Positions 24,923 to 29,488 of a stretch of DNA of 64,000 bases are shown piece after piece. The stretch covers positions 310,001 through 374,000 of the forward strand of contig NZ_JAUSUQ010000001.1 of NCBI RefSeq assembly GCF_030814135.1, given 5' to 3'. The position numbers and the translations under genes are program-made. Each line of letters opens with the position of its first letter. Position 1 is the stretch's first letter. Source of the DNA: Caldalkalibacillus uzonensis. GTDB taxonomy: Bacteria; Bacillota; Bacilli; Caldalkalibacillales; Caldalkalibacillaceae. The notes beneath the pieces are model-generated. The model saw nothing but the letters and a program-made list of their open reading frames with translations. It had not been told where the DNA came from and ran no database searches.

Positions 24923-25735
24923 ATGCACACTATCTGGAAGGGGTCCATCAGTTTCGGCTTGGTGCATATTCCCATTAAACTTTATGCAGCCACGGATAAT
25001 AAACAAATCCAACTGCGCCAGTTGCATCAGGAATGCCATACACCCATCAAGTATGATAAAGTGTGTCCGGTTTGCGAAGAAAAAGTGAGCCAGGAAGAGA
25101 TTGTCAAAGGGTATGAATATGATAAAGGTCACTTTGTCGTCCTCGGTGACGAAGAACTGGAGGCCATAGCGGCCATCAAAAGCAAAACGATTGACATTAT
25201 TGATTTCATCCAGTTAAAAGAGATTGATCCCATTTACTTTAACCGTTCCTATTACCTGGGGCCCACCGAAAACGGAGAAAAAGCCTATGCCCTTTTAAAA
25301 CAGGCCATGGAGGACACAGAAAAGGTGGCTATCGCCAAATTTATTTTACGGGCCAAAGAACAATTGGCCGCCATCCGGGTCTACCAGCGGGCACTGGTGA
25401 TTGAAACCCTCCATTACCCTGATGAGATCCGCTCTGTGGAGCATATTCCGGGTCTAGCAGAAATGGAGCTTGAGGATAAAGAGTTAAACATGGCTAAACA
25501 ATTGATTGACCAGTTGACAACAGAGTTTGAACCTGAACAGTACACCGATGAATACCGGAGCAAACTAAAAGAGATCATTGAGAACAAGATTACCGGAGAT
25601 GAAATCAAAATTGCCAAAGAAGTGCCTGAAACGGATATTAAGAGCTTGATGGATGCCCTGCAGGAAAGCATTGAGCAGACCAAGAAAAAGACCAAACGCC
25701 GCCGCACCACCAAAAAGAAGGCTAAAACATCATGA
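24923..25735 (+). CDS. ku: Ku-type NHEJ DNA end-binding protein
   Basis: Ku binds double-strand DNA ends and recruits LigD. The 270-residue protein starts MHTIWKGSISFGLVHIPIKLY, the usual bacterial Ku opening, with the conserved CPVCEE and FNRSYYLGP segments and a lysine-rich C-tail (KKKTKRRRTTKKK) that in the family aids DNA binding. The ATG at 24923 has AAGGAG 8 nt upstream; 20 more residues in frame are rejected. Its stop overlaps the ligase start in ATGA. In B. subtilis the equivalent genes act mainly in spores and are sigma-G controlled; no such promoter was clear here. Confidence 0.95.
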   Translation: MHTIWKGSISFGLVHIPIKLYAATDNKQIQLRQLHQECHTPIKYDKVCPVCEEKVSQEEIVKGYEYDKGHFVVLGDEELEAIAAIKSKTIDIIDFIQLKEIDPIYFNRSYYLGPTENGEKAYALLKQAMEDTEKVAIAKFILRAKEQLAAIRVYQRALVIETLHYPDEIRSVEHIPGLAEMELEDKELNMAKQLIDQLTTEFEPEQYTDEYRSKLKEIIENKITGDEIKIAKEVPETDIKSLMDALQESIEQTKKKTKRRRTTKKKAKTS

Positions 25736-26718
25736 ACACCTCCACCCACACACTTCCCTCCCTCTCGCCCATGCTGCCCGCGTTATCCTCAACCATTCCC
25801 CGCGGGGAAGAGTGGCGGTACGAACTTAAATTTGACGGTTACCGGGCGCTGGTGTATTGGACGGTGGACAGCATCCATATTGTCAGCCGCAACGGCAAGC
25901 TGTACAATGAGCTTTTTCCCGAGGTTGTGGATGCTTGCTTACGCTTCACTCCGCAACTTAAAGATCAGCTTCCCCTCATTGTGGACGGTGAGTTGTGTAT
26001 TCTGGCCTCCCCAGCCAGAGCGGACTTCAGCTTAATCCAGCAGCGCGGCCGCTTCCGCTCTCTCCCAAAAATTGCCAGTGCAGCAAAAAAACACCCGGCC
26101 ACCTTGATCTGTTTTGATTTGCTGCATTACCAAGATCAAGATCTCCGCTTCCGCCCCTACCTTGAGAGAAAAGAACACCTGAAACAGGTGCTGGGTCCTC
26201 TGTTGCCGTCCCAGCCCGGTGCGAGAGATGCCTCTCTCCGTTTGATAGAGGTGTATGAACAGCCTGATCACTTGTGGGAACTGGTCCTGGCCGAAGATGC
26301 TGAAGGCATTGTGGCCAAGCTGGGCTGTAGCGTCTGGCAGAGCGGAAAGCGCACCACCGACTGGATCAAAGTAAAAAACTATAAACTGGCCACCTGCTTT
26401 ATCACCGCTTACGACAAACAGAATGCCTATTTTCATGTGGGCGTCTTACGGGATAAAGAGGTACAGCCGGTGGGCTTATTTTCCCATGGTTTAAGTGACA
26501 CTGAACGCCGGGCTTTGGTAGAGATCGTCAAACAGAACAAAGCAGGCGAATCCCGGTCCATGATCACAATGGAGCCCAGTCTATGCGTGGATATCAAGTT
26601 TTTACAGGTTTATAAACAGCAGCTGCGGGAACCCCGTTTTGCCGGTTTTCGTACGGATGTTCAGTGGGAGGAGTGCACATGGCTAAAGCTGATCAACAGC
26701 GCCAGACGGTCAACCTAG
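25732..26718 (+). CDS. ligD: ATP-dependent DNA ligase of LigD type (ligase domain only)
   Basis: The enzyme seals nicks in NHEJ. The 328-residue protein holds all nucleotidyltransferase motifs: motif I ELKFDGYR with adenylated K33, SRNGK, VDGELCI, ICFDLL, EGIVAK and WIKVKN, then an OB fold ending RFAGFRTDVQWEECTW. That is the normal end of a LigD ligase domain. B. subtilis LigD continues into a polymerase domain; here the frame stops and the polymerase is a separate gene overlapping by 40 bp in another frame. No phosphoesterase domain is present. Confidence 0.92.
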   Translation: MNTSTHTLPSLSPMLPALSSTIPRGEEWRYELKFDGYRALVYWTVDSIHIVSRNGKLYNELFPEVVDACLRFTPQLKDQLPLIVDGELCILASPARADFSLIQQRGRFRSLPKIASAAKKHPATLICFDLLHYQDQDLRFRPYLERKEHLKQVLGPLLPSQPGARDASLRLIEVYEQPDHLWELVLAEDAEGIVAKLGCSVWQSGKRTTDWIKVKNYKLATCFITAYDKQNAYFHVGVLRDKEVQPVGLFSHGLSDTERRALVEIVKQNKAGESRSMITMEPSLCVDIKFLQVYKQQLREPRFAGFRTDVQWEECTWLKLINSARRST

Positions 26719-27602
26719 ATGGTTATTTAGTTGATTTGACCAGCCTGGATAAATTGGTCTGGCCAGACAGAGACATAAACAAATCGGCGTACCTGTATTA
26801 TTTATCACATACAGCAGAGTATATGCTCCCCTGGCTGAGAGGCAGGCACCTGACCGTCATCCGTTATCCCCACGGGATTACAGGCGAATCCTTTTATCAA
26901 AAAAATTGCCCTGCTTATGCGCCTGAGTTCATCCAGACAGATACCCATGAAGGGATAAACTACATTGTTTGTTCTAATTTAGCCACCCTGATCTGGCTGG
27001 GCAATCAACTGGCCCTGGAGTTTCACATTCCTTTTCAACATGTGGAGACTGACAAGCCCTCGGAAATTGTGTTTGACTTGGATCCCCCTGACAGGGAGCA
27101 GTTTCATGTCGCTGTGAAGGCCGCATTGATCATGAAGAAGCTGTTTGATAAACTGGGTCTTACTTCTTTTATCAAAACGTCGGGCAACAAAGGATTGCAA
27201 GTGTACATTCCCATTCCAAAAAAAACCTACACCTATGGCCAAACGCGCTTGTTCACCTCGTTTGTGGCCCGTTATCTGGTCTCAGAGCAACCGGGACTGT
27301 TCACCATTGAACGCTTAAAGAAAAAACGGCGCGGCCGCCTGTATGTGGACTATGTTCAGCATGCGCCAGGCAAAACCATTATTGCCCCTTATTCCCCCCG
27401 CGCCAATCCGGAAGCGTTAGTCGCCACCCCTTTATACTGGGATGAAGTGGATAGCCGCTTAAGACCCGAACAATTTTCCCTGAAAAACATCCCCACCCGG
27501 CTTAAAAAACAAGGTTGCCCCTTTGAATCCTTTGACAAGGCCCGGGACAACCAACCGTTTGATGTCATTTTGGAGTGGATCAATACGCATCAAAAAGTGT
27601 AG
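26679..27602 (+). CDS. LigD-type NHEJ polymerase/primase domain protein
   Basis: The 307-residue protein is an archaeo-eukaryotic primase fold that fills gaps with ribonucleotides at DNA ends. The metal-binding aspartates are in FDLDPP (D133, D135) and YVDYVQ (D224), with SGNKGLQVYIPI between them. The ATG at 26679 has its own GGGAGGAG site inside the ligase gene, which argues for a real split rather than a sequencing frameshift. Together with ku and the ligase gene it forms a complete three-gene NHEJ operon. Confidence 0.92.
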   Translation: MAKADQQRQTVNLDGYLVDLTSLDKLVWPDRDINKSAYLYYLSHTAEYMLPWLRGRHLTVIRYPHGITGESFYQKNCPAYAPEFIQTDTHEGINYIVCSNLATLIWLGNQLALEFHIPFQHVETDKPSEIVFDLDPPDREQFHVAVKAALIMKKLFDKLGLTSFIKTSGNKGLQVYIPIPKKTYTYGQTRLFTSFVARYLVSEQPGLFTIERLKKKRRGRLYVDYVQHAPGKTIIAPYSPRANPEALVATPLYWDEVDSRLRPEQFSLKNIPTRLKKQGCPFESFDKARDNQPFDVILEWINTHQKV

Positions 27603-27648: not shown

Positions 27649-27969
27649 TCACTTTAATAGGTTTTGCAGTTTAAGTGCTTTGGACATATCCCCCTTAATT
27701 TTTACTTTCCCCGTCATGACAGCCATGGCGGGGTTAAGCTTACCCTCCGCCAAACTGATAAAATGTTCGTCAGATAAGGCAAACACACAGGCCGCTTCAT
27801 ATGGTGTTCCTTCCACAACTTCCACTTTGTCATCATTAACTTTAACTTGGAAGGTGCCTACCTGTTGTCCATTAATTTCAAATTGAAATACTTCATTAAT
27901 GTTTTTAATCTTATCCGGACTGTCGTTTGCTTTGTCCACTAACCGAGTCAAGACCTCTTTGACGGACAT
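27649..27969 (-). CDS. SCP-2 sterol-binding domain protein
   Basis: The 106-residue protein has one SCP2 lipid-binding fold, with INGQQVGTFQVKVNDDKVEV and the helix motif LAEGKLNPAMAVMTGKVKIKGDM. No signal peptide or membrane segment is present. Members bind lipids or CoA esters; the ligand cannot be predicted. The ATG follows AGAGGAGGG. It converges on the ligD polymerase gene. Confidence 0.88.
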   Translation of the reverse strand: MSVKEVLTRLVDKANDSPDKIKNINEVFQFEINGQQVGTFQVKVNDDKVEVVEGTPYEAACVFALSDEHFISLAEGKLNPAMAVMTGKVKIKGDMSKALKLQNLLK

Positions 27970-28027: not shown

Positions 28028-29458
28028 TTATTTAGCCTCTGAAAGCAGACGATGCTTCAATTCCCACAATTTTTGAGAGAGGTCGACGTGGTAACCATGC
28101 GGATTGATCAAACGCCTGATTTCAGGAGCAAAGCGTTCTTTCTCTTGCTGGGCGTAACGTTGTATTTCGGTTAACTTAGGCAACTCATAAACAAGTTCAC
28201 CATTTTTGAAAATGGGGACAAGCAGTTCCCTAGTTTCAAAGTTTTCCACTTTTTTTCGTTTCCAAGTGTTAACAGGGTCAAAAGCGATAAATGCTTTCCT
28301 TGGGATCGGCTCTTCTTCCAGCATGATTAAATCCACCAGGGCCCGTTTGGAATCCCGGTCGTAAAAACGCACTACTTTTTTGTAGCCAGGATTGGTGATT
28401 TTTTGCGGGTTTTCACTTACCTTAATTTTAGGTACCAACCGGCCATCTTCTTCCTCAGCGACCAGCTTATACACTCCACCAAGGGCGGGGCAGTCCTTGG
28501 ATGTGATTAAATTGGTACCTACACCCCAGGCATCAATTTGAGCGCCTTGCGCTCTCAAATCCCTGATCAAATATTCATCAAGGTCGCTGGAAGCCACAAT
28601 CAGTGCTTCTTCAAAACCGGCCTCATCCAGCATTTTCCGGGCTGCTTTGGACAAATAGGCCAGGTCGCCGCTGTCCAATCGGATGCCGAACTGGACGAAC
28701 TGATCCCCCAGCTCGTCCTTCATTTTCTTAAAGACTTTAATAGCATTGGGCACCCCGCTGTTTAACGTATCATACGTATCCACCAGCAAAATGCAGTTAT
28801 GGGGAAAGGTTCGGGCAAAATCTAGAAATGCGTCATACTCGGACGGATAACTTTGTACATAAGCATGGGAATGAGTGCCTTTGATGGGAATGCCAAATTT
28901 TTTCCCCGCTAACACATTGGACGTGGCCTTGACCCCTCCCACAAATGCTGCCCTTGCACCGTACACCCCGGCATCAGGCCCTTGCGCCCGGCGCAAACCG
29001 AATTCCATCACCAGCCCCCCTCCGGCCGCCTCCACAATCCGGGAGGCTTTGGTGGCAATCAAGGTCTGGTGATTAATCATGTTCAGAATGGCAGTTTCAA
29101 TGAGCTGGGCTTCCCCTATAGGTGCCCTGACCCTTAACAGCGGCTCGTGGGGAAAGACAACCGTTCCTTCAGGCACCGCATAGAGATCTCCCGTAAACCT
29201 TAATTGCTTTAAATACTGTAGAAAATCCTCATCATAACGCTCCACTGACCTTAAATAGGCGATGTCCTCGTCAGTAAACCGCAGCTGGCAGATATATTCC
29301 ACAACCTGCTCCAATCCTGCCGCGATGGCATAGCCGCTTTGACTGGGGTTCTTGCGGAAATAAAGGTCAAAGACCGTTTGTTGATTCAACTTTCCATTTT
29401 TAAAGTGTGCATACATCATATTGATCTGGTAAAGATCAGTTAACAACGTTTTGTTCAT
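28028..29458 (-). CDS. pncB: Nicotinate phosphoribosyltransferase
   Basis: The enzyme makes nicotinate mononucleotide from nicotinate and PRPP in NAD salvage. The 476-residue protein starts MNKTLLTDLYQINMMYAHF and has the phosphohistidine segment KGTHSHAYVQSYPSEYDAF, LDSGDLAYLSKAAR and GVGTNLITSKD. The ATG at 29458 sits behind GGGGGAAG; nine extra residues in frame are rejected. The DUF3054 gene is 30 bp upstream, probably in the same transcript. Confidence 0.94.
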   Translation of the reverse strand: MNKTLLTDLYQINMMYAHFKNGKLNQQTVFDLYFRKNPSQSGYAIAAGLEQVVEYICQLRFTDEDIAYLRSVERYDEDFLQYLKQLRFTGDLYAVPEGTVVFPHEPLLRVRAPIGEAQLIETAILNMINHQTLIATKASRIVEAAGGGLVMEFGLRRAQGPDAGVYGARAAFVGGVKATSNVLAGKKFGIPIKGTHSHAYVQSYPSEYDAFLDFARTFPHNCILLVDTYDTLNSGVPNAIKVFKKMKDELGDQFVQFGIRLDSGDLAYLSKAARKMLDEAGFEEALIVASSDLDEYLIRDLRAQGAQIDAWGVGTNLITSKDCPALGGVYKLVAEEEDGRLVPKIKVSENPQKITNPGYKKVVRFYDRDSKRALVDLIMLEEEPIPRKAFIAFDPVNTWKRKKVENFETRELLVPIFKNGELVYELPKLTEIQRYAQQEKERFAPEIRRLINPHGYHVDLSQKLWELKHRLLSEAK

Positions 29459-29488
29459 CACTTCCCCCAAAGCTCCCTTGTACAAGAT

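Follow-up and report, generated by a model that had tools for sequence, protein, structure and literature searches.

A split, overlapping ligase-polymerase gene pair in a predicted three-protein end-joining operon of Caldalkalibacillus uzonensis

When a DNA ligase gene ends in one reading frame just as a repair polymerase gene begins in another, has a fused gene been broken, has a base been misread, or have the two genes never been one? The question is posed by a locus in a 64,000-nucleotide stretch of the Caldalkalibacillus uzonensis genome (hereafter the window). The two-protein nonhomologous end-joining (NHEJ) system described for Bacillus subtilis, Ku plus a fused LIG-POL LigD, has the same domains in the same order as the window (PMC1378119). 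The B. subtilis LigD is one polypeptide, however, whereas the window has two genes in two frames, each with its own start site. A first-pass annotation, made from the sequence alone, had read this as a stable fission of LigD that yields a three-protein system. The stable split and the three proteins are borne out by what follows, but the fission is not, as in our best-sampled tree the fused genes make up a derived clade that excludes the split loci. We think it probable that the ku-lig-pol operon encodes a three-protein NHEJ system and that its split, overlapping form is the older state, the fused Bacillus-type LigD having come from a joining of the two frames.

The operon and its predicted products

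By open reading frame, ku, the ligase gene and the polymerase gene form a tight, overlapping operon with all genes on the forward strand (Table 1). Possible alternative polymerase starts are in-frame GTG codons at 26664 and 26673. Two genes converge on the operon from downstream: one for a 106-residue protein that matches no NCBIfam model at 1e-10 (27649–27969, reverse strand) and one for nicotinate phosphoribosyltransferase (28028–29485, reverse strand).

Table 1. Features of the ku-lig-pol operon, in window coordinates
Feature	Position	Strand	Basis
ku, NHEJ Ku protein, 270 aa	24923..25735	+	Pfam Ku 4e-57; NCBIfam Ku_bact
Overlap of ku stop and ligase start, 4 nt, ATGA	25732..25735	+	Read from sequence
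Stand-alone NHEJ ATP-dependent DNA ligase, LigD-type, 328 aa	25732..26718	+	TIGR02779, PF01068, PF04679, catalytic motifs
Shine-Dalgarno-like GGGAGGAG of the polymerase gene, within ligase codons for W-E-E	26666..26673	+	Sequence; kept in split relatives
Overlap of ligase and polymerase genes, 40 nt, polymerase in -1 frame	26679..26718	+	Sequence; equal length in G001
Stand-alone NHEJ primase-polymerase (LigD POL), 307 aa	26679..27602	+	PF21686, TIGR02778, solved relative 5dmu

Profile searches identify all three products. The first scores 329.3 bits against Ku_bact (cut-off 150), so that a Ku gene is present. The ligase carries the Pfam domains DNA_ligase_A_M and DNA_ligase_A_C and lies above the cut-off for TIGR02779, the LigD-type NHEJ ligase domain (235 bits; cut-off 227.75), and the polymerase lies above those for LigD_Prim-Pol (1.4e-83, 280.8 bits; cut-off 27.4) and for TIGR02778, the LigD polymerase domain (298.5 bits; cut-off 214.7). 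Its best solved relative is 5dmu, an "NHEJ Polymerase" (4.9e-52) that we take to be a Methanocella protein. Neither product reaches the cut-off of a fused-LigD model, be it PRK09633 (ligase 321.7 and polymerase 468.6 bits; cut-off 774) or TIGR02776 (234.5 and 358 bits; cut-off 373.2). On the 610 positions of PRK09633 the ligase covers 3–315 and the polymerase 322–608, and the break therefore sits at the domain border. That both proteins have their catalytic residues, as the first-pass annotation held, is correct: the ligase has KxDG, GE, EG..AK and WIKVK (presumably its nucleotidyltransferase motifs), the polymerase has DxD and a third D (presumably its catalytic aspartates), and all of these are invariant across the 15 split and 33 fused LigD-type loci compared below.

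One match for the window's polymerase and one close ligase were found in the genome. Two further, remote stand-alone ATP-dependent ligases, similar to each other, are encoded on small contigs (L160, 6610–7455, 281 aa; L161, 4002–4838, 278 aa); their nearest NCBIfam model is PRK07636, for which they fall just below the cut-off of 337 (330.5 and 321.8), and reading frames that we read as transposase-like lie nearby.

The only other genome of the genus that we found, that of another species (G001), has the same gene order and an identical 40-nucleotide overlap, although the proteins have diverged to 69% (ligase) and 79% (polymerase) identity. By the Nei-Gojobori method, dN and dS between the two species are 0.065 and 1.38 for ku (dN/dS ~0.05), 0.208 and 1.01 for the ligase (~0.21), and 0.127 and 1.40 for the polymerase (~0.09). 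Purifying selection acts on all three genes, and a pseudogene reading is rejected by these ratios. Comparison of the junction with relatives was a check that the first-pass annotation had proposed. A single-base error is excluded, since the junction is common to both species and dN/dS is well below 1. We give almost no credence to the wider reading in which a sequencing error or recent frameshift broke a fused gene; beyond the frame change itself nothing speaks for it, although recent breakage is known in relatives (G768), and the polymerase comes with a start and a Shine-Dalgarno sequence of its own. Both reading frames are complete, and the proteins are separate and conserved. No fused LigD was found at the polymerase match in any of the four other genomes examined from the window's order.

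Ligase codons at the polymerase start

The polymerase start site that had been noted inside the ligase gene is confirmed, with the ATG 5 nucleotides after GGGAGGAG, and it recurs well beyond the genus. Across 15 split LigD-type loci the polymerase is always in the -1 frame relative to the ligase, and the overlap, counted from the first ATG, is 28–49 nucleotides in 14 loci and 4 nucleotides in the other (G766). A ligase ending in W-E-[E/D/V]-C is found in 13/15 split loci, 0/33 fused loci and 1/36 other loci, and TGGGAGGA in 12/15, 0/33 and 1/36, respectively. The sole "other" locus that has both, G739, is itself of the split LigD type with a broken polymerase gene; one split locus (G761) is without the embedded-site motif. 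In the split lineages, then, the codons for W-E-[E/D]-C-T-W double as the Shine-Dalgarno sequence and start of the polymerase gene (TGGGAGGA). All 14 motif-bearing loci use GAG for the glutamate of the site, whereas the share of GAG among glutamate codons in those reading frames is 18–56%; multiplied together, these fractions give 10^-6.97, a figure that is too strong because the loci are related. Fused LigD proteins retain a looser stretch at the junction position. Most simply, the junction codons serve two readings in split lineages. We also searched 33 fused LigD loci for a fossil of fusion in the form of a vestigial Shine-Dalgarno sequence and ATG; the pair occurs in two loci, once outside the main frame, which is no clear fossil.

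A constant -1 frame in all 15 loci, together with frames that are both open over 100 nucleotides in the window and G001, might point instead to programmed -1 ribosomal frameshifting within the overlap that yields some fused ligase-polymerase from split genes. In a search of the doubly open stretches, however, a slippery heptamer in the right frame turned up in only one of the 15 loci (G716), and neither the window nor G001 had any of the tested kind. With the polymerase also having its own start and Shine-Dalgarno sequence, we regard such frameshifting as very improbable.

We propose instead that translation of the polymerase probably relies on a Shine-Dalgarno sequence of its own inside the last ligase codons and is coupled to that of the ligase. 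Judging by the families to which the proteins belong, Ku would hold the broken ends, the stand-alone primase-polymerase would fill gaps and the stand-alone ligase would seal, the three presumably assembling in trans at DNA ends. The fused Bacillus-type LigD would have arisen from such a split operon by joining of the two frames.

Distribution of the two forms and the direction of change

Relatives of the polymerase (E <= 1e-5) were found in 39 of 61 related genomes, 218 of 398 genomes of the class and 169 of 299 of the phylum. Among the matches listed in Bacillota the stand-alone form is the usual one, with frames of ~300–340 residues for most and longer ones for some. The window's type of ligase (E <= 1e-35) occurs in 43 of the 398 class genomes, fused in 40 (frames of 584–682 residues) and split in three (the window, G001 and G388). 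Among 120 genomes from the order of G388, a ligase match (E <= 1e-20) is present in 87, comprising 15 split LigD-type loci in eight families, 70 in frames of 509–712 residues and two remote short ligases (G763, G693). Dropping two split loci with broken polymerase genes (G739, G768) leaves 13 in seven families, which with the window and G001 make up the 15 split rows used here, in eight families. The split is therefore not unique to the window. A search of genome contigs for related loci gave a single match, a remote Variovorax locus.

For the polymerase, a tree of 81 rows (53 split, 27 fused, one partial) was built with 19 wider-phylum rows as outgroup, of which the best branch left four on the other side. 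The window groups with G001 (100/99), and the two lie outside a 35-row group (94/82) that contains four split loci (G388, G002, G003, G004) and all fused loci. Two split polymerases (G012, G128) and the partial one (G290) lie inside the fused polymerases, in a 7-row group (99/99), so the fusion has also been lost secondarily.

A first concatenated ligase and polymerase tree (63 rows) took in loci whose two genes differ in history. The window, G001 and G388 came out together with fused rows in a fork that it did not resolve, the fused clade having support of 33/17. When the fused rows were tested as one clade that also holds G012, G128 and G290, the clade was rejected (p-AU 1.1e-05), which we take to be due to the foreign ligases of those three loci. 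The tree that followed has 61 rows (33 fused, 15 split LigD-type, 13 outgroup), with 20 loci added after the first tree. Left out of it were loci with a foreign ligase (G012, G128, G290, G002), with a ligase not found in the locus or a broken polymerase (G003, G004, G117), with other broken polymerases (G739, G768) or a broken ligase (G051, G509), nine distant loci (G669, G522, G463, G529, G534, G676, G413, G525, G407), and stand-alone loci beyond the 13 chosen as outgroup. In this tree the fused rows form one clade, with support of 93/98 that falls short of the tool's starred threshold; outside this clade lie the split loci and the split outgroup. The clade is recovered in 92.5% of 1,000 bootstrap trees, from a bootstrap that had not fully settled. 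Quick ligase-only and polymerase-only trees, each needing two changes, did not sharpen the result; in the polymerase-only tree the family of G388 falls on the fused side and the window does not. As the fused rows are one clade and the outgroups are split, an ancestral split operon and a single derived fusion appear the most likely history, one that these trees favor without proof.

In the opposite history LigD was fused to begin with, and one or more fissions gave rise to the window's gene pair and to the other split loci. In its favor, the nearest relatives of the window's ligase and of its polymerase alike are fused LigD and further split loci of the LigD type, and one clade for all 15 split LigD-type rows is not rejected (p-AU 0.145). 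Fusion was lost in other lineages, those whose polymerases sit inside the fused group, and G290 even retains a remnant of a LigD-type ligase fused to its polymerase. Set against this, the window falls on the fused side in just 7.4% of bootstraps of the 61-row tree, stand-alone genes prevail in the outgroups, and several independent breaks would need to have hit on an identical -1 frame, place and embedded Shine-Dalgarno sequence. We therefore consider fission unlikely, and prefer fusion of an older split pair. We lean, by a little, toward a fuller version of that history, in which ancestral Bacillales would have carried an overlapping ku-lig-pol operon whose last ligase codons (W-E-[E/D]-C-T-W) were kept by selection because they are at once the ribosome-binding site and start of the polymerase gene. 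LigD would then have fused once, releasing the double constraint, and the living split lineages would preserve the fusion intermediate.

Relation to described systems and variant loci

The window operon belongs to a class already named, nonconventional NHEJ, because LIG and POL in different proteins is part of the definition of that class, which is over-represented in Firmicutes (Sharda et al. 2020, PMC7719229); its end-joining activity is predicted. Like the systems described there, it has Ku and separate LIG and POL proteins, its genome belongs to that phylum (Bacillota), and we see no difference in kind, although the overlapping, conserved junction is a detail that we did not meet in that paper's account. 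Ligase, polymerase and nuclease genes that stand alone were mentioned as early as 2006, in a review that called the evolution of these genes not yet clear and trans interaction of the stand-alone proteins still to be discovered (PMC1378119). The stand-alone NHEJ genes of Streptomyces coelicolor (PMC1378119) and those of Methanocella paludicola include a separate polymerase, as in the window; these organisms also have a phosphoesterase/nuclease protein, but none is seen adjoining the window operon in its immediate neighborhood. A literature search by titles and the opening parts of abstracts, which makes for a weak negative, returned no paper on an overlapping ligase-polymerase junction or on which way fusion went in Bacillales. 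Both that direction and the conserved dual role of the ligase codons may thus be unreported.

The arrangement in the window is the common one in the phylum, and these loci are natural three-protein relatives of the minimal two-protein NHEJ of B. subtilis. They let one ask what fusion of polymerase to ligase adds, be it recruitment, stoichiometry or hand-off at the break, and with split and fused junctions in series, one can test which way a domain architecture changed.

In G290 (L078, 4369–6535), a 425-residue reading frame runs from the C-terminal third of a LigD-type ligase into the polymerase and adjoins a complete 320-residue ligase of the other, stand-alone class; this has the look of a fused LigD from which the ligase catalytic domain was lost, with a second ligase as its replacement. 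In G002 (L061), G128 (L080) and G012 (L081) a polymerase of the LigD-type group neighbors a ligase from the other, stand-alone class, which suggests that the ligase and polymerase of one operon can differ in origin. Polymerase genes are broken by stops or frameshifts, or truncated, in G004 (L063), G117 (L079), G739 (L147) and G768 (L153), and the NHEJ polymerase is therefore lost now and then in Bacilli.
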